Shown here one piece after another: positions 3,252 through 21,840 of a DNA stretch of 23,466 nucleotides. The position numbers and the translations under genes were made by a program. The stretch is from a virus, in the IMG/VR virus record IMGVR_UViG_3300043395_001694, positions 1-23,466 of that record. One strand, given 5' to 3'. Each line of letters begins with the position of its first letter. Positions within the stretch are counted from its first letter, which is position 1. The notes beneath the pieces are model-generated. The model did not search any database, had not been told where the DNA came from, and saw only the letters and a program-made list of their open reading frames with translations.

Positions 3252-3323
3252 CTCCACAACCTGGATTCGAACCAGGGACCAATCGATTAACAGTCGATGG
3301 CTCTACCGCTGAGCTATTGTGGA
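3252..3323 (-). tRNA. tRNA-Asn (GTT)
   Basis: A cloverleaf reads on the minus strand: acceptor TCCACAA pairs TTGTGGA, the D arm is GCTC/GAGC, the anticodon stem ATCGA/TCGAT encloses loop CTGTTAA (anticodon GTT), and the T arm is CCTGG-TTCGAAT-CCAGG. The discriminator is G and no CCA is encoded. Last tRNA of the cluster in the direction of transcription. Confidence 0.93.
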
Positions 3324-3329
3324 ATGAAA

Positions 3330-3500
3330 TCATGGTTGTTTAGTATCCATGAGAAATTCTACAGTATTTGCTATATCATTCATAGCATCACGCAGATGTG
3401 GTCGTTGTCCGCTTTCTTGACGGACAATCGGGCGATGATCATCTGTAAGAGACCAGCGCCATTGCCTCATTTCGACGCAATACCAGAGATTAATTTTCAT
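3330..3500 (-). CDS. Small conserved-looking cyanophage protein, 56 aa
   Basis: The frame starts MKINLWYCVEM at ATG 3500 and ends MDTKQP-stop. An upstream in-frame ATG at 3572 exists but lies inside the neighbouring gene; the start at 3500 overlaps that gene's stop region (ATGAAAATTAA), a typical translational-coupling arrangement, so I chose it. The segment WRWSLTDD followed by QESG and AMNDIANTVE resembles small proteins I recall from other T4-like cyanophages, function unknown. The first half looks like a small beta unit rich in Trp, followed by a helix. No signal peptide or membrane segment is visible. Confidence 0.6.
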   Translation of the reverse strand: MKINLWYCVEMRQWRWSLTDDHRPIVRQESGQRPHLRDAMNDIANTVEFLMDTKQP

Positions 3501-3645
3501 GTTTGAAATTTTCCAGTTTGAGCCAATTGAGGAGGGCGTTGATTTCCATTCTTTTTGCTTCACTAAGATCATATTGTTTATTGAAAAGGTAAAAATCTAG
3601 TGCCTCAATGGCAAGGTCTCGGTCGGGTTTTGAAATGAGTGACAT
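3490..3645 (-). CDS. Small hypothetical protein, 51 aa
   Basis: The frame reads MSLISKPDRDLAIEAL and ends ENFKHEN-stop. A longer reading from ATG 3705 would begin inside tRNA-Ala (3665-3737), so the internal ATG at 3645 is preferred. No strong ribosome site precedes 3645. The product looks wholly helical and acidic/basic mixed, and overlaps the next gene by 11 bases. It sits between tRNA-Ala and tRNA-Asn, so it is probably cotranscribed with the tRNAs. Function not recognised. Confidence 0.5.
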   Translation of the reverse strand: MSLISKPDRDLAIEALDFYLFNKQYDLSEAKRMEINALLNWLKLENFKHEN

Positions 3646-3664
3646 AAGAGTTATAATAAACTCA

Positions 3665-3737
3665 TGGAGAATAGGAGACTCGAACTCCTGACAGCCTGCT
3701 TGCAAAGCAGGTGCTCTACCAACTGAGCTAATTCCCC
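3665..3737 (-). tRNA. tRNA-Ala (TGC)
   Basis: The minus strand gives acceptor GGGGAAT/ATTCTCC (one G-U), D arm GCTC/GAGC, anticodon stem CCTGC/GCAGG with loop TTTGCAA (anticodon TGC), and T arm CAGGA-GTTCGAG-TCTCCT-like. Discriminator A, no encoded CCA. It reads GCA-type codons, which fits an AT-rich phage in a host of higher GC. Confidence 0.9.
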
Positions 3738-3738
3738 G

Positions 3739-3813
3739 TGGTCCTCTGTCTAGGAATCGAACCTAGTTTCCATGTGTGTTGTCCACCCGTCCTTACCAAT
3801 AGACTAACAGAGG
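3739..3813 (-). tRNA. tRNA-like element with degenerate anticodon arm (possible pseudo-tRNA)
   Basis: Most of a tRNA is intact on the minus strand: acceptor CCTCTGT pairs perfectly with ACAGAGG, T8-A9 are present, the D arm is GTCT/GGAC with ATTGGTAA loop, the T arm is CTAGG-TTCGATT-CCTAG, the discriminator is A, and CCA is encoded, unlike in its neighbours. The anticodon arm does not work. Positions 27-43 (GGTGG-ACAACAC-ACATG) give only 2-3 pairs, and the universal U33 is a C. By position the anticodon would be AAC (Val). An alternative register (GGGTG-GACAACA-CACAT) gives CAA and A33, also non-canonical. I cannot assign an amino acid; a decayed tRNA or a tRNA-like RNA with another role are both possible. 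Confidence 0.6.
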
Positions 3814-3814
3814 A

Positions 3815-3944
3815 GAGGGGAGTATTAGAGGACTCCCCATACGACTATCATAAAAATGATAGAAGGTGTACAATGCCGCCTTTCTTACTGCTTCCCCACG
3901 GTGGCAGTAAGTATCTCGACAAGGTTGGCGTCTAAGACTACCAA
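3815..3944 (-). ncRNA. Candidate structured RNA segment with three hairpins between tRNAs
   Basis: This 130-base gap lies between tRNA-Thr and the tRNA-like element and has no convincing ORF. Read on the minus strand it holds three perfect stems: CTTACTGC/GCAGTAAG (8 bp, 12-base loop, 3884-3911), CTATCAT/ATGATAG (7 bp, 4-base loop TTTT, 3845-3862) and GGGGAGT/ACTCCCC (7 bp, 8-base loop, 3817-3838). Three such stems in about 95 bases is more than I would expect by chance, though I could not compute a probability. No T-run follows any of them, so they are not ordinary intrinsic terminators. They could be tRNA-processing signals, a small RNA, or relics of a deleted tRNA. Confidence 0.4.
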
Positions 3945-4018
3945 AGCCCAAGGTCGGACTTGAACCGACGACCTACGGTTTACAAAACCGTTGCTCTATC
4001 CAGCTGAGCTACTCAGGC
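3945..4018 (-). tRNA. tRNA-Thr (TGT)
   Basis: The minus strand folds with acceptor GCCTGAG/CTTGGGC (two G-U), D arm GCTC/GAGC, anticodon stem ACGGT/ACCGT with loop TTTGTAA (anticodon TGT), and T arm GTCGG-TTCAAGT-CCGAC. Discriminator T, no encoded CCA. Its first 10 bases overlap the 3' end of the cpeT-like gene, whose TAG stop is formed by positions 8-10 of the tRNA. Confidence 0.9.
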
Positions 4019-4533
4019 ACTCTAACAAATTTGAACGCACCCCAATCAGATCCCCATACTTTATCATGATTTTCTGCATTTAGACCTTTATCAATAACAT
4101 GGTATTCATCTTTTGTAAGAGTTACCTCGTTCTGAACATAGGTCTTAATGCCATTCCAAGTTACCCAACACTCACAAGTAGAAGTTCCACCAGTGAAGAG
4201 TTCAGGACCAGTCTGTGACATAATTATATCGCATCCTGGGCGGTATGTCAAGGTTTCATCAGTGATAAGTTCAAGATTAGTTCCACCAACAAATCGTTTT
4301 GGATCTTCAATCTCATAATTTTTGAGACGGAATTGACCTTTTTCGATCTCCACATCAATCACAAATTGACGATATGGATTTTCTGGTAGATAGTTATATG
4401 CTTGCTCACCATAAAACCGTGTATCTCCAATTTTGCAATGCCTGACAGTAATCATGGCATAACGAGTTGGATGACATTGTGCTTGGTATTTATTGGAAAA
4501 TGTTCCTTCCAAATATTCAAGAAACTGGTTCAT
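4009..4533 (-). CDS. cpeT: CpeT/CpcT-type phycobilin lyase homologue (auxiliary metabolic gene)
   Basis: This 174-residue protein (MNQFLEYLEGTFSNKYQAQ...) matches the CpeT/CpcT chromophore-lyase family in pattern. It has an N-terminal EGTFSN-QA segment, a central NPYRQF region, a GCDIIMSQTG strand near residue 100, then STCECWVTWNG, and a C-terminal DKGLN---HDKVWGSDWGAF-FVRV segment, all features I recall from the family. Cyanobacterial members attach or help attach phycobilins to phycobiliproteins; phage copies may act on host phycobilisome pigments during infection, which is inference. Length is a little shorter than host proteins (about 200 residues). It overlaps the upstream gene by 17 bases and ends inside tRNA-Thr, so it is part of the tRNA-cluster transcript. 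No membrane segment. Confidence 0.8.
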   Translation of the reverse strand: MNQFLEYLEGTFSNKYQAQCHPTRYAMITVRHCKIGDTRFYGEQAYNYLPENPYRQFVIDVEIEKGQFRLKNYEIEDPKRFVGGTNLELITDETLTYRPGCDIIMSQTGPELFTGGTSTCECWVTWNGIKTYVQNEVTLTKDEYHVIDKGLNAENHDKVWGSDWGAFKFVRVPE

Positions 4534-4798
4534 CTGGTAAAACTTCAGGATTAACTAAATCTAACTCAAACAAAACTGGATGGCATTCTTCAGCAATAAG
4601 ATAGTCAGAATAACGGAAGATATCTTCCATAGTATATTCTTGATTGAGTGCTGCTTCAGCCAAGATCCACTTGTCATGTTTGTCGTTTTCTTCTAAGATA
4701 TCAAAAGCAAATGGTATGTTCTCAATATAATACATCAATACAGGTTCATTGTCGACAAAGACATGTTTTCTGGTGATTGTGTATCTGAAAACTGCCAT
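4517..4798 (-). CDS. Hypothetical protein, 93 aa, coupled to cpeT
   Basis: The frame reads MAVFRYTITRKHVFVDNE and ends LPDEPVS-stop. I prefer ATG 4798; a GTG one codon upstream (4801) is also possible. A GAGAG ribosome site lies about 10 bases upstream. The N-terminal half is rich in beta-type residues and the C-terminal half is acidic (EECHPVLFELDLVNPEVLPDEP). The gene overlaps the cpeT-like start by 17 bases, suggesting translational coupling and possibly a shared role, though I know no function for it. No membrane segment or signal peptide is visible. Confidence 0.65.
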   Translation of the reverse strand: MAVFRYTITRKHVFVDNEPVLMYYIENIPFAFDILEENDKHDKWILAEAALNQEYTMEDIFRYSDYLIAEECHPVLFELDLVNPEVLPDEPVS

Positions 4799-4818
4799 CA
4801 CATTTGATCTCTCAAAAT

Positions 4819-4842
4819 TTCCTGTTACTATTTACACAGGAA
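4819..4842 (-). terminator. Hairpin after tRNA-Leu, possible weak terminator or processing site
   Basis: On the minus strand TTCCTGT and ACAGGAA form a perfect 7-bp stem with a 10-base loop, followed by ATTTTG. It directly abuts the 3' end of tRNA-Leu. The T-run is short, so partial termination or tRNA 3' processing are both possible. Confidence 0.35.
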
Positions 4843-4915
4843 TACCCGTGGTCGGATTCGAACCGACACTGGAGGGATTTTAAGTCCCCTGTCTCTGCCG
4901 TTGGACTACACGGGC
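4843..4915 (-). tRNA. tRNA-Leu (TAA), short variable loop
   Basis: The minus strand gives acceptor GCCCGTG/CACGGGT, D arm GTC/GAC, anticodon stem GGGGA/TCCCT with loop CTTAAAA (anticodon TAA), a 5-base variable loop CCAGT, and T arm GTCGG-TTCGAAT-CCGAC, with discriminator A and no CCA. The anticodon is that of tRNA-Leu, but bacterial tRNA-Leu normally has a long class II variable arm, which is absent here (73 bases in total). Confidence 0.85.
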
Positions 4916-4919
4916 AAGG

Positions 4920-4992
4920 TGCTCCTTGAGGGGATCGAACCCACCTTAGCCGAATTATGAGTTCGGTGCATTCGCCAGATTGCTAAAGGAGC
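4920..4992 (-). tRNA. tRNA with CAT anticodon (Met, or Ile after lysidine modification)
   Basis: The minus strand gives acceptor GCTCCTT/AAGGAGC, D arm GCA/TGC, anticodon stem CCGAA/TTCGG with loop CTCATAA (anticodon CAT), and T arm GTGGG-TTCGATC-CCCTC with one T-T mismatch. Discriminator A, no CCA. The first acceptor pair is G-C, so it is not a typical bacterial initiator tRNA, which has an unpaired first position. An Ile(k2CAU) identity cannot be excluded, but Ile(TAT) next door makes Met more likely. Confidence 0.85.
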
Positions 4993-4995
4993 GAA

Positions 4996-5067
4996 TAGGG
5001 ATACTGGGAGTTGAACCCAGACTAACCCGTTATAAGCAGGCCGCTCTAACCATTAAGCTATACCCCC
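4996..5067 (-). tRNA. tRNA-Ile (TAT)
   Basis: The minus strand gives acceptor GGGGGTA/TATCCCT, D arm GCTT/GAGC, anticodon stem GCCTG/CGGGT with loop CTTATAA (anticodon TAT), and T arm CTGGG-TTCAACT-CCCAG. Discriminator A, no CCA. TAT decodes ATA, a codon that is rare in many hosts but common in AT-rich phage genes. Confidence 0.9.
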
Positions 5068-5613: not shown

Positions 5614-5940
5614 TCAATCCCTTTGGCGCCAGTCTTCTGGTTTGTCTCTTCCATCTGTGAAGAAATCAACAATTTCATCAACAGAATTGAAACGGGCAAT
5701 ACCTTTTGCTTCGTGACCAATTCCACCAATGTCAAGTTGGTTTAAAAAATCGTCCATATCTCCCTCCTTCATGTCGGGATTTGCTGCAGTTCTCCTTGCC
5801 TGGCGGAGAATTGTTGCTGCTGATCTATTGGATTTTGCTAACTTTTCTGCCCATATCATATCTTCCAAACTAACATCTTCTTGTGCTATAATTTTTTCAC
5901 AGATCGCTTCTAGACGAAGACGATATTGGGTAGAAAGCAT
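5614..5940 (-). CDS. Conserved-looking cyanophage protein, 108 aa
   Basis: The frame starts ATG 5940 (MLSTQYRLRLEAICEKI...) with AAAGGA 5 bases upstream. The N-terminal ~60 residues form a helical segment with the pattern YRLRLE-ICEKI----VSLEDMIWAEKLAKSN--AATILRQARR, which I recall as common in T4-like cyanophages. A linker (GDMDDFLNQLDIG) and an acidic tail (DEIVDFFTDGRDKPEDW) follow. Function unknown. A late-type promoter motif sits 23 bases upstream and the 40-base repeat element sits beyond it, so expression is probably late and independent of the tail module. Confidence 0.75.
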   Translation of the reverse strand: MLSTQYRLRLEAICEKIIAQEDVSLEDMIWAEKLAKSNRSAATILRQARRTAANPDMKEGDMDDFLNQLDIGGIGHEAKGIARFNSVDEIVDFFTDGRDKPEDWRQRD

Positions 5941-5963: not shown

Positions 5964-5971
5964 TATTTATT
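5964..5971 (-). promoter_or_regulatory. Late-type promoter (AATAAATA)
   Basis: The minus strand reads AATAAATA, one base off the T4 late consensus, 23 bases before the ATG at 5940. The same distance and flanking repeat are seen at 17992-17998. Confidence 0.55.
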
Positions 5972-6010
5972 GCGACTTTTCGGGCAATTTTTTGGCGGAA
6001 AAATTTTTTC
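5971..6010 (-). repeat. 40-base AT-rich repeat element, copy A
   Basis: The plus strand has TGCGACTTTT, six variable bases, ATTTTTTGGCGG, then A5-T6-C. It matches copy B (17999-18038) at 33 or more of 40 positions and in both cases directly abuts a late promoter. It contains two overlapping AT palindromes around a GGCGG core. It fills the gap after the spike gene, so a terminator or promoter-enhancer role is possible. Confidence 0.65.
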
Positions 6011-6037
6011 GACTTTTATAGAAACAAAACTTGATTT

Positions 6038-7267
6038 TCAGTTTAGGTAAATCAATGCACCTTGTATTTTTACGTTACCAGTTGCTTTTACCAACATTTG
6101 ACCAACAGAAATCAAATTCATGGCACCAGCAGTAGTTGCACTGAACACGCCAGTTGCAGTTGCATTTAAAACTCCAGTTGATGTCATTGTAAGTCCAGCA
6201 GGTATTGTCGCACTTAGAGCAGCTCCAGCAGAAATCGAAACACCACCAGTTTTTCCAGAAATACCAACAGAAGTTAAAGCAGAAATATTTACTGCTCCAG
6301 CAGGAAGTTCTAATAATGCCTTTGGATCAAATTTATCATTTGCTCCCAAACCAAGGGAACTAATATCAATAGATCCAACTCTACTCAATATTCTCGTTTT
6401 ACCTAAGAGAACATCTAATGAATACCCATGTGTTCTATCACTAATTAAAGGAACTCCAGTTAATCCAGTTGGGGAAGCACCATACACACTAGTTGCCATG
6501 ACACCAGCAACAATAATTTTATAGTCGCCAGTAATTCTATGCTGTAGTGTTCCAGAACTAGTTAGTGTTGTAGTTGCTCTAGGATCATATGTTATTGAAG
6601 TATCTTCGCCAGCTCCTATTTGTGTTTTTTGTCCAAATAAAATTTTATCTTCGTTAATATAATCTTGTTCAAATCTGCCAGCAGTCATTTTAATTGATCC
6701 ACTTTTTCCAGCAGCACCTGCTTGAATATGGATAGATGCATTTGCTTTAATGATAATATCTGATGCATCAATATACAATTTTGTTGCTCTGATATGCCTT
6801 TCACCTAATGTTTCTTCTTTATAATCTCCGTTTGATTTGATTCCAATTGCATAATTTGGTTCTTTTTCTCCAGATGAGTTATAATTGATAGTAAGAGGAT
6901 AAAGATAGTTATGGATACCTCCGTTTGCATTGATATTCAATCTTCCACTCGAAGCACCACGTTCTTTGGTTCTCATTCCAGTGTTCAGAGCAAGGCATCC
7001 ATCAGCACTTAAAGTTACCATGGAATCAGTTGGTCCAAAGATAACTAAAGCATCTGGTTCAAATCTTCCACTCGCACCGATATAAGATCTAACACTCAAT
7101 TCACAGTTGTCACCTTTCAATAGAGTTTTGATTTTTATACCAAGTTTTTGATCTTCACTCTCGTCTGGTTTTAATGGTTGGGCTGGTCCTTCCTCACTAA
7201 TTTTGTCGTAGGTTGATTTTCTTGCTGCCCTTGCCTCTGTCTTTGCATGTAAATCTGTGTGTGACAT
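6038..7267 (-). CDS. Beta-helix spike-like baseplate protein (gp5 C-terminal/VgrG-type)
   Basis: The 409-residue protein starts ATG 7267 (MSHTDLHAKTEARAARK...) with AGGAGG 8 bases upstream. After a charged N-terminus (residues 1-50), a beta-rich region runs to about 250. The C-terminal third is a regular array of short strands rich in Gly, Ala, Ser, Thr (VNISALTSVGISGKTGG, VSISAGAALSATIPAGL) ending GNVKIQGALIYLN. That ending is typical of the triple-stranded beta-helix of T4 gp5 and VgrG. I infer that it forms the membrane-puncturing spike as a separate polypeptide. It is 12 bases downstream of the gp5-like gene, which lacks such a helix, supporting a split of the T4 gp5 functions. No enzymatic motif is seen. 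Confidence 0.7.
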   Translation of the reverse strand: MSHTDLHAKTEARAARKSTYDKISEEGPAQPLKPDESEDQKLGIKIKTLLKGDNCELSVRSYIGASGRFEPDALVIFGPTDSMVTLSADGCLALNTGMRTKERGASSGRLNINANGGIHNYLYPLTINYNSSGEKEPNYAIGIKSNGDYKEETLGERHIRATKLYIDASDIIIKANASIHIQAGAAGKSGSIKMTAGRFEQDYINEDKILFGQKTQIGAGEDTSITYDPRATTTLTSSGTLQHRITGDYKIIVAGVMATSVYGASPTGLTGVPLISDRTHGYSLDVLLGKTRILSRVGSIDISSLGLGANDKFDPKALLELPAGAVNISALTSVGISGKTGGVSISAGAALSATIPAGLTMTSTGVLNATATGVFSATTAGAMNLISVGQMLVKATGNVKIQGALIYLN

Positions 7268-17071: not shown

Positions 17072-17256
17072 TACTTCTTCTGCTTCTCTTGCTCTTGTTT
17101 GAGGTTATCGAGATATTGCAATAGCAGAGAAACATATACCTGCCTCTCCCATGGATATAGATTTTCAATCTCTGTCAAGCTATATTTATGGTGCTGGATC
17201 AAAGCAAAGTTAGTTTTATAATACCCTTCCAGAGTATTGTGGAAGAGTGCTACCCG
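17071..17256 (-). CDS. gp51-like tail-assembly extension in the -1 frame of gp26 (no start codon)
   Basis: The -1 frame after gp26 encodes 61 residues (RVALFHNTLEGYYKTNFAL... ending LKQEQEKQKK) and stops with TAA overlapping the tape-measure ATG. The -1 frame is open only from 17286 and contains no ATG, GTG or TTG before the segment, so independent initiation looks unlikely. Its core (LTEIENLYPWERQVYVSLLLQYL) is the kind of pattern seen in tail-assembly chaperone extensions and T4 gp51-type proteins. A slippery site T-TTT-TTC at 17256-17262 would join it to gp26 residue 237, giving a 298-residue fusion. It is a strong candidate for a programmed frameshift product. Confidence 0.75.
   Translation of the reverse strand, partial: RVALFHNTLEGYYKTNFALIQHHKYSLTEIENLYPWERQVYVSLLLQYLDNLKQEQEKQKK
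17183..17190 (-). promoter_or_regulatory. Possible internal late promoter (CATAAATA)
   Basis: The minus strand reads CCATAAATATAG, identical over 12 bases to the sequence upstream of gp54 (18884-18891), 112 bases before the first tape-measure ATG. It lies inside the gp51-like coding frame, so selection for codons cannot be excluded. Confidence 0.3.
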
Positions 17257-17262
17257 AAAAAA
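17224..17262 (-). promoter_or_regulatory. -1 programmed ribosomal frameshift signal
   Basis: Minus strand: slippery heptamer T TTT TTC (17262-17256) in gp26 frame, then GGG and the TAG stop (17252-17250). An 8-base spacer (17255-17248) leads to an 8-bp stem with one T-G pair (17247-17240 with 17231-17224) and an 8-base loop. The stem begins where stimulatory hairpins are normally placed. After a -1 slip the next codons are CGG GTA GCA, exactly the gp51-like frame. Confidence 0.72.
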
Positions 17263-17966
17263 CTTTGAAGACCCTCGATTGTGTATTCAGACTTCTCGCC
17301 AGTCTTTGGATTCACTACACTAAATGTATGCTGAAGTTTTGGTGCTGTATCAAAGAACTTCTGTACCTTTTCGAACTGTTCGTTGGTAAATTTCTCAACA
17401 AACTCAATCTTTTCTTTTCTTGTCGTCGTTGATTCGTCATAAACAGAATCTTCGTCAAACATTTGATCGATACTATCAGCAAGAATCTCAAATACATCAT
17501 CTGTTGTAACTTCTTTCTCTACAATAGATCCTTCAACAAATCTATTGAAACCAGGATACTTCATGATAATACCAACATTATCATCTAGCATAATTTTATT
17601 GGTATGTCCTTCTGGCTTGACAACTTTTACATCATGTAGATTAATTTGTGTCGTAACTCTTGTCTCACCATCATCTAGACATGTTACCTGCATCTCAATC
17701 ATTTCACCAACAGATGCTGCGCGAATTTTGAGAAAGATATATTCTAAATCAAAAGTGGCAAGATCATCAATTTTTACACCACGAGTTTGAATACATGCAG
17801 TAAGAAGATCACGTACAGCATTCTGAATAGTTTCTGAATCATCACTCTGTAGTGCTAAGAGTAATACCTTTTCTTCCTTAACTACAAACGGACGATACTT
17901 GATCTTCTTTCCAGTAGAAGGTACTTCAAGTTCATACGTTGGATGTTCTAACTTTGGCAAAGCCAT
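17250..17966 (-). CDS. 26: gp26 baseplate hub/tail-assembly protein
   Basis: The 238-residue protein starts ATG 17966 (MALPKLEHPTYELEVPSTGKK...) with GAGG about 8 bases upstream. It matches the T4 gp26 family (T4_baseplate, about 208 residues in T4): an N-terminal PTYELEVPSTGKKI-YRPF-VKEEK segment, ALQSDD--TIQNAVRDLL-ACI, a TFDLEYIFLKIRAASVGE motif near residue 90, and a C-terminal helix-rich EKFTNEQFEKVQKFF region. The gene ends at a slippery site, so a minor fraction of ribosomes may make a longer gp26-gp51 fusion. The gene directly precedes the tape-measure genes, as G/GT chaperones do in lambda. A late promoter and a repeat element sit upstream. Confidence 0.85.
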   Translation of the reverse strand: MALPKLEHPTYELEVPSTGKKIKYRPFVVKEEKVLLLALQSDDSETIQNAVRDLLTACIQTRGVKIDDLATFDLEYIFLKIRAASVGEMIEMQVTCLDDGETRVTTQINLHDVKVVKPEGHTNKIMLDDNVGIIMKYPGFNRFVEGSIVEKEVTTDDVFEILADSIDQMFDEDSVYDESTTTRKEKIEFVEKFTNEQFEKVQKFFDTAPKLQHTFSVVNPKTGEKSEYTIEGLQSFFG

Positions 17967-17991: not shown

Positions 17992-17998
17992 TATTTAG
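17992..17998 (-). promoter_or_regulatory. Late-type promoter (CTAAATA) for gp26
   Basis: The minus strand reads CACTAAATA 25 bases upstream of the gp26 ATG, directly abutting repeat element copy B. Spacing and context mirror the motif at 5964-5971, which supports a real late promoter for the hub/tape-measure operon. Confidence 0.6.
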
Positions 17999-18038
17999 TG
18001 CGACTTTTTTAAGCGATTTTTTGGCGGAAAATTTTTTC
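17999..18038 (-). repeat. 40-base AT-rich repeat element, copy B
   Basis: The plus strand has TGCGACTTTT, seven variable bases, ATTTTTTGGCGG, then A4-T6-C. It lies between the end of gp54 and the late promoter of gp26, the same layout as copy A (5971-6010). The rest of the 102-base gap to gp54 shows nothing else. Confidence 0.65.
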
Positions 18039-18068
18039 CAGATCTTTGTTAAACAAGATCTGAATTTG

Positions 18069-18857
18069 CTATGTCGATGCAGCATCAAGTTCTGCTTGAG
18101 TAGCAGCGGATGATTGTGTACCAACACCAGATCCTTGCCCCTCTGATCTTCTTACAGATGCAGATGGTTCGTTCTTTGTGTTAATAAAGTATGTATGATG
18201 ACGTGCATAGTAGAACGATGCTGTTACCTTTGTAATTTGTGATGCTCCGTACTGAAGTGGTACGGCATCAATTGCATATGGATATGCTTGTTCAATATAG
18301 TATGCAATAGGTGGTCTTCCATTAGCAGCATTAGGAGAAATCTCTGTTTTAGTAATCAAAATATCAAGCATATATTCATCTGGATATCTTACTCTAACAG
18401 ATCTATTCTTCCCAATATCTCCCTGTGGAATTTTTCCTTTCATCTTTGTCAGTTCATACCTTTCATTTCCAAGTTTAACTGGAGTTACTCCAAAGATAAA
18501 ATCATTCCATGTCGTTAAAAATTTGAGGGGTGTCATGTCAGCATCGCACATCCATCCTAATTGAAAATCACTATACACTCGTGTGTGAGCATAATTTACA
18601 GCACCAGAACCAAGATATCTACCATTTATTGTTCCAGTAGCAGTACTTACATTGGGAAGTTGTGCCTCATCACAAAGTAATCTAATAATTTGCTCATCTT
18701 TCTGTCCTTTCATGGTGTATGCAGAAAGAAGATTTTTTATTCCATCTCCAGATGCAGCGGGAAATCTAAACTCTATATCCCAGTTGTTACTGAAGGACAT
18801 ACCTCCAGCACCAGCTATGGTCTGTAAAAATATGTCAATACTTCTTGCTGCTGCCAC
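18069..18857 (-). CDS. 54: gp54-like tail-tube initiator (gp19 tail-tube family)
   Basis: The 262-residue protein starts with GTG 18857; AGG 8 bases upstream supports it. The N-terminal region (SIDIFLQTIAGAGGMSFSNNWDIEFRFP) and the central DFQLGWMCDADMTPLKFLTTWND segment match the T4 gp19/gp54 tail-tube fold. T4 gp54 has 320 residues and gp19 163. I call it gp54 because it neighbours gp26, gp48 and gp53 rather than the sheath gene gp18, but a gp19 role is not ruled out. It would cap the hub and start tube polymerisation. The C-terminal 35 residues are low-complexity Ser/Gln/Gly/Ala. Divergent from gp4. Confidence 0.7.
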   Translation of the reverse strand: MAAARSIDIFLQTIAGAGGMSFSNNWDIEFRFPAASGDGIKNLLSAYTMKGQKDEQIIRLLCDEAQLPNVSTATGTINGRYLGSGAVNYAHTRVYSDFQLGWMCDADMTPLKFLTTWNDFIFGVTPVKLGNERYELTKMKGKIPQGDIGKNRSVRVRYPDEYMLDILITKTEISPNAANGRPPIAYYIEQAYPYAIDAVPLQYGASQITKVTASFYYARHHTYFINTKNEPSASVRRSEGQGSGVGTQSSAATQAELDAAST

Positions 18858-21159: not shown

Positions 21160-21840
21160 ATGTACTTTTCTCTAGTTCCAAACATCGAATACGATGAAAA
21201 ACCAATCAGTTATCCTTTCTCGGAATCTGATTATGTTGTAGCAAAAAATTTCTTTAGAAGATATCAAGTCAATCAAGATGTATTTTCTTATGCTGTCTTC
21301 TTCAATAAGTATTCAATCGAAGATGGGGAGAGACCATATACTATAGCACAAAGAGCATATGGAGATCCATTCTATGATTGGGTGGTATTAATTACAAACA
21401 ATATCATCAACCCATTACATGACTGGCCACTTACTAACTACGAGTTGCAGAAAACTGTAGAAAGTGAGTACGATGATCCGTATGGAACTATTCATCATTA
21501 TGAAACGGTAGAAGTTCCAGCTGGATATACAGTAACAACAGACTTTGGTGAAACAGAACCAGTCATAGCACTTCAAGGTGGTCTTGTTGTGGATCAAACA
21601 TTCTACAACAGTACATTCAAGTATTGGAATGGTAGTACATATACAACAAAAAGCGGTAATGTAGTTTCCAAACCTGTTACAGTTATGGATTACTACACTA
21701 CCGAAAATGAAAAGAAGAGAGAGATCTATCTACTTAAAGCAAGATACTTCCAATCTTTTGTTGATGAATTCCGTAATAAGAATTTGTATAAGTCATCGGG
21801 AGATTATATCTCCCAACAACTTAAGAGGGTAGGAGTTTAG
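21160..21840 (+). CDS. 53: gp53 baseplate wedge protein
   Basis: The 226-residue protein starts ATG 21160, one base after gp48 stops. The N-terminus (MYFSLVPNIEYDEKP) and the segment YTIAQRAYGDPFYDWVVLITNNIINP---WPL are the gp53 family signature, a LysM-like arrangement. Residues 105-175 hold a beta-rich insert, and the end (EIYLLKARYFQSFVDEFR) matches family C-termini. T4 gp53 has 196 residues. It joins baseplate wedges around the hub. The gene ends convergently with gp32, sharing four bases of stop codons, with no terminator between them. Confidence 0.85.
   Translation: MYFSLVPNIEYDEKPISYPFSESDYVVAKNFFRRYQVNQDVFSYAVFFNKYSIEDGERPYTIAQRAYGDPFYDWVVLITNNIINPLHDWPLTNYELQKTVESEYDDPYGTIHHYETVEVPAGYTVTTDFGETEPVIALQGGLVVDQTFYNSTFKYWNGSTYTTKSGNVVSKPVTVMDYYTTENEKKREIYLLKARYFQSFVDEFRNKNLYKSSGDYISQQLKRVGV

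Follow-up and report, generated by a model that had tools for sequence, protein, structure and literature searches.

T4-like phages carry PeSL (promoter-early stem-loop) cassettes, in which an early promoter is combined with a stem-loop. Cyanobacteria, the hosts of T4-like cyanophages, are not known to have Rho. A passage of PMC2984593 gives NATAAATA as the late promoter motif of cyanophages, and the passage of PMC4503421 on the ORFanage region of phage S-PM2 reports few PeSL-like features there. In PMC3037559, the passages on terminator predictions and on late promoters of cyanophages do not mention the element analysed here, and a literature search in PMC found no paper describing it. The window, by which we mean the whole stretch of DNA analysed, is a viral record of 23,466 bases that carries genes of T4-like cyanophages. 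At the DNA level, it is best matched by Synechococcus phages, for example S-RSM4 and S-WAM2.

Two copies of the element in the window

A preliminary description of the window reported a 40-base repeat directly upstream of two late promoters. The repeat is real and its letters are as described. Compared without gaps, the 40-mers of copies A and B are identical at 28 of 40 positions. Their gapped local alignment scores 27, compared with at most 12 on the plus strand (3307 40-mers) and at most 14 on the minus strand when copy A is aligned to the remainder of the window. An independent HMM was built from 51 distinct copies at the convergent, promoter-less gp53/gp32 junction of other phages. It finds just two places in the window (Table 1); the next place has an E-value of 0.71, and an additional overlapping match lies on the opposite strand of copy A (E 0.00096). 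Since a model made from a junction of other phages picks only these two places, the repeat is well beyond chance. The shared element is longer than the 40 bases originally recognized and extends over about 70 bp.

The element, the promoters, and the genes at both loci are all on the minus strand, which corrects the preliminary description. Read on this strand, each copy starts at the stop codon of the preceding gene and ends against a late-type -10, with the ATG 23-25 bases further on, as had been described. The position of both copies after the end of an upstream gene, also recorded earlier, is the diagnostic feature of the element, unlike the adjacent -10. In S-RSM4, g26 likewise comes after the element. 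The heptamers CTAAATA and ATAAATA by themselves are not enriched in the window.

At the window's own convergent junction, gp53 (plus strand) and a gp32-like gene (minus strand) overlap stop to stop by 4 bp (21837-21840), which leaves no room for the element. Between copy A and the tail-fibre gene lie seven tRNA genes mixed with small ORFs (3252-5067, minus strand). A perfect sigma70 consensus (TTGACA, 17 nt, TATAAT) is present in the same small-gene and tRNA region at 4251-4223 (minus strand).

Table 1. Features at the two copies of the element; positions are those of the window.
Feature	Position	Strand	Details
Element copy A	5972-6035	-	Full-family HMM E 2e-14; convergent-copies-only HMM 6033-5975, E 7.1e-7
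Late-type -10 ATAAATA beside copy A	5964-5970	-	ATG at 5940, 23 nt further
Baseplate hub / tail lysozyme gene (gp5-like), upstream of copy A	6038-7267	-	PHROG 4540, E 2.1e-47; stop codon 6040-6038
108-aa gene, no assigned function, downstream of copy A	5614-5940	-	PHROG 507, E 6.9e-39
Element copy B	17998-18066	-	Full-family HMM E 3e-9; convergent-copies-only HMM 18062-18002, E 3e-6
Late-type -10 CTAAATA beside copy B	17992-17998	-	ATG at 17966, 25 nt further
Hairpin with a perfect 8-bp stem, 5' part of copy B (CAGATCTT..AAGATCTG)	18039-18062	-	No U-run after it on the minus strand
Tail-tube-like protein gene, upstream of copy B	18069-18857	-	PHROG 45, E 4.5e-36
g26, baseplate hub, downstream of copy B	17250-17966	-	PHROG 150, E 4.5e-76

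The element forms a family in T4-like cyanophages

Scans of viral contigs with seed sequences were dominated by chance matches. Among the matches listed, the same block of about 57 bp recurs, essentially ungapped, in many cyanophage contigs at different genes. Four seed matches (L059, L115, L026, and L196) were excluded before the first model was built. The final alignment has 91 rows; each is a match with E<=1e-4 that covers the model in full, and similarity between rows is below 87%. At E<=1e-4, the sequence-only model of these 91 copies matches all 13 records of T4-like cyanophages, with one to four copies in each; three of the 13 (S-PM2, S-RSM4, and G003) contributed rows to the model. None of seven other records (T4, RB49, KVP40, pelagiphage HTVC008M, podovirus P-SSP7, Microcystis phage Ma-LMM01, and cyanophage S-TIM5) is matched at this threshold, and the best score among them belongs to RB49 (E 0.0013).

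A blastn query with the S-RSM4 copy retrieved 144 phage records, nearly all of them cyanophages. The same search with copy A of the window, and with one other copy, gave no matches, probably because of the low-complexity filter. An exact pattern of the element, which fits the two copies in the window and 65 of the 571 loci, has no match in 84,980 prokaryote genomes. The element is thus phage-restricted in the scans made. Derivation from a host terminator was rejected on the same result, which comes from an exact search and leaves room for divergent host copies.

In Syn9 (3012), Syn33 (2323), S-ShM2 (15969), and S-SM2 (21753), the 3' part of the element is replaced by a block resembling CCTATAGG/CCTTAAGG, followed by T5-T6. 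The block is possibly a second module.

Copies are positioned at gene 3' ends in a fixed orientation

Nineteen annotated copies in nine isolates, drawn from 22 copies with E<=1e-4 in eleven isolates, were compared with the gene annotations. In seventeen of them, no more than 25 nt separate the start from the 3' end of a same-strand gene. The two exceptions, S-SM2 58888 and S-RSM4 136578, have their nearest gene end on the same strand at distances of 168 and 412 nt, respectively. One copy in Syn9 follows a tRNA-Val gene by 5 nt. In each of S-RSM4, Syn9, and Syn33, a copy occupies the gap between convergent genes, where there is no promoter.

Arrangements were also counted from mechanical ORF calls for 184 distinct copies over the locus sets. 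Neighbouring genes are tandem (++) at 83 copies, convergent (+-) at 70, divergent (-+) at four, and (--) at three; 16 copies are inside an overlapping ORF call and eight have one neighbour missing. The upstream gene is on the same strand as the element in 153 of the 160 copies with both neighbours resolved, and in these 153 the distance from the upstream stop to the start of the element has a median of -1 nt (interquartile range -13 to 3). These counts are dominated by two orthologous junctions. When the copies are grouped by the families of the neighbouring genes, there are 33 junction types, 27 of which have a same-strand upstream gene. The gp53/gp32 junction carries the element in 67 of 80 gp53-centred loci (E<=0.01).

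What follows the element varies: a late -10 (before g26, the 108-aa gene, or a tail fibre gene), a sigma70-like promoter, a nearby start codon, or a convergent gene. In S-PM2, a start codon is located within a few bases after the copies at 154882 and 164904. In L036 and in S-PM2 (NC_006820, 162663-162731), a sigma70-like promoter directly follows the element in place of the late one; this S-PM2 copy lies after a gp5-like gene. In L008, L019, and L035, a strong separate terminator (GGGGGG..CCCCCC stem, T6) is positioned within about 10 nt after the element.

The element and the late promoter are separable

Sets of loci around g26 and around the 108-aa gene were chosen by locus, avoiding choice by motif. 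Six of 80 g26 loci and three of 80 loci of the 108-aa gene were left out for having too little upstream DNA, which resulted in sets of 74 and 77. TAAATA is kept in all 74 g26 upstream regions, together with the element in 62 and alone in 12. In every one of these 12 element-less loci (in the range L336-L352), an open frame continues to the TAA in TAAATA, so that the stop codon of the preceding gene lies within the -10. Upstream of the 108-aa gene, the element is present in two of 77 regions, TAAATA alone in 70, and neither in five, one of which (L463) was read 110 nt off. An open frame extends up to the late -10 in 32 of these 70 loci.

The junction of copy A provides a comparison of a filled and an empty site. 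In loci L412, L423, and L429, the same upstream gene tail (GAL-I-x-LN-stop) runs into AACTAAATA, whereas the window has AACTGA, the element, and then TAAATA, a difference of about 70 bp. The comparison shows no clear target duplication. The element is gained and lost as a module and is not part of the late promoter. The retention of the late -10 at g26 loci that lack the element indicates that the element is a modular gene-end unit, probably a terminator or an insulator.

Terminator scores and RNA folding

When the 91 distinct copies are scored together with their flanks, 22 have scores above zero as intrinsic terminators (18 forward and five reverse, one being in both counts), compared with none of 364 shuffled sequences. 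Without flanks, 20 of the 91 reach such scores. The remaining 69 copies scored with flanks do not reach the canonical form. Several textbook terminators with unrelated stems occur at the gp53/gp32 junction, for example UUGGCGGGG..CCGCCAA, UUGGGG..CCCCAA, and UACCCAG..CUGGGUA, each followed by 7-8 U; on the other strand of this junction, the stem UUCGGGC..GCCCGAA is followed by 7-8 U. Several copies have a U-run in the opposite orientation to the gene. Neither a general terminator scan nor the scoring detected a stable hairpin with a U-run on the element strand of the two window copies. The best terminator score of copy A is -36, from a weak stem on the reverse strand, and copy B has none.

The forward strands of 175 copies have a mean folding z-score of -1.88 relative to shuffles, and many copies fold better than their shuffles. 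RNAalifold produced no consensus structure for the element, and a search of Rfam found no family at it. The full-length hairpin is 64.8% paired, compared with 64.7% in shuffles. Compensatory changes amount to 45 both-side cells, compared with 59.3 in shuffles, and the covariation score of 0.127 (0.121 in shuffles) is equalled or exceeded by 79 of 500 shuffles. A conserved long stem-loop was therefore dropped as a candidate: a long imperfect hairpin can be drawn, but RNAalifold gave no consensus and the pair counts no covariation.

The conserved feature is a skeleton of A/T tracts

The pattern common to the copies consists of A/T tracts that recur about every 12 bp, with short G/C-containing spacers between them, over about 70 bp in all. 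Alignment columns strongly keep their A/T or G/C class, whereas A and T interchange within the tracts. Columns 52-56 are 100% A/T, and the minority base is present in 23-38 of the 91 copies. TpA steps number 162, compared with 538 in mononucleotide shuffles. Predicted curvature is mildly raised over the 91 copies (mean z -1.5), and the two in the window do not stand out (z -0.8 and -0.3). Phased curved DNA was set aside, with a tract spacing of about 12 bp rather than 10.5 bp and curvature this modest. What the pattern suggests is A-tract DNA, not an RNA fold; we put it no more strongly because self-complementary tracts may account for part of the signal and the choice of seeds biases one of the source sets.

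Discussion

On balance, we favour a gene-end module as the interpretation: the element would bring a transcription unit to its end or insulate it. It would be a gene-3'-end element of T4-like cyanophages, set at the stop codon in a fixed orientation to that gene. Its likely function would be to stop or block transcription that comes from the upstream unit and thereby prevent read-through into the next one. The protected unit would begin with a late promoter in the window, and elsewhere with an early promoter, or would be a convergent gene. About a quarter of the distinct copies may act as canonical hairpin-plus-U terminators. The other copies, including both in the window, could cause termination or pausing by means of their A/T-tract DNA or of a weak hairpin, with a protein bound to the site perhaps taking part. 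From position, orientation, and the relatives, we infer that the window copies probably terminate transcription of the genes they follow.

The preliminary description had suggested a combined terminator-promoter cassette, a binding site for a late-transcription factor, or a bent DNA site, and had proposed a search of relatives, which returned further, conserved copies. The terminator-promoter cassette comes closest, as a gene-end module that is sometimes followed by a late promoter; elsewhere a sigma70-like promoter, a bare start codon, or a promoter-less convergent gene follows. The binding site is not supported. A sequence that activates the late promoter from upstream, either UP-element-like or a loading site for gp33/gp55/gp45, could account for the A/T tracts upstream of the -10 and for the many g26 loci in which the element abuts it. 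We consider it very improbable because the -10 stands without the element at both g26 and the 108-aa gene, copies at convergent junctions have no promoter, and some copies precede sigma70-like promoters or bare ATGs. Late-promoter activation was rejected as the main reading because each occurs without the other. A PeSL-like junction cassette that is mobile or promotes recombination, and that would chiefly shuffle genes at transcription-unit borders, agrees with the clean presence or absence of the element at one gene junction, with the number of family-level junction types, and with the joining of the gp5-like 3' end to at least three different downstream genes. Nevertheless, the low copy number per genome, the conservation rather than shuffling of orthologous positions (g26 and gp32/gp53), and the absence of a visible target-site duplication make this explanation unlikely.

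The main rival to the gene-end module is a boundary at the level of DNA. TpA-free A/T tracts, being rigid with a narrow minor groove, might bind a putative nucleoid-type protein of the phage or host or stall the polymerase and so insulate the units, and hairpins would be a later overlay in some lineages. This fits the interchange of A and T within a kept A/T class, the depletion of TpA, the near-fixed tract spacing, and the absence of RNA covariation. The clear enrichment of canonical terminators in the family argues against it, as does the weakly raised curvature, and we regard it as possible but less probable. The bent DNA site of the preliminary description finds weak support: TpA-free A/T tracts are conserved, but the predicted bending is modest. 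The more specific proposal that a hairpin-independent A/T-tract DNA signal, neither intrinsic nor Rho-type, forms the transcription boundary at gene ends of T4-like cyanophages, with hairpin terminators secondary in some lineages, appears doubtful to us.

The element provides a searchable signature of transcription-unit borders in T4-like phages of marine cyanobacteria. Its effect can be tested directly on the natural pairs with and without it at g26 and at the 108-aa gene. The case also shows that an element adjoining a promoter need not belong to that promoter.

Among known systems, the T4-type late promoter is next to the element in the window, but each occurs without the other. Bacterial REP/BIME palindromes, as generally known and as portrayed in a passage of PMC3733652, are likewise short, extragenic, partly palindromic, and located at gene 3' ends, whereas the element has one to four copies per genome and is phage-restricted in the scans made. 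With PeSLs, as generally known and as outlined in the passage cited above, it shares the coupling of a stop signal to a promoter at unit borders and a modular presence; it differs in being mostly combined with late promoters or none, in usually having no strong stem-loop, and in its low copy number. The window copies have late -10s and no terminator stem-loop, and it is only outside the window that the element precedes a sigma70-like promoter (S-PM2 162663 and L036). Intrinsic (Rho-independent) terminators have the same gene-end position and orientation, and a stem with a U-run is present in 22 of the 91 distinct copies; most copies, including both in the window, have no such pair and conserve the primary A/T-tract pattern instead. 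Although its window copies lack the defining features of both, the element is closest in kind to intrinsic terminators and PeSL cassettes.
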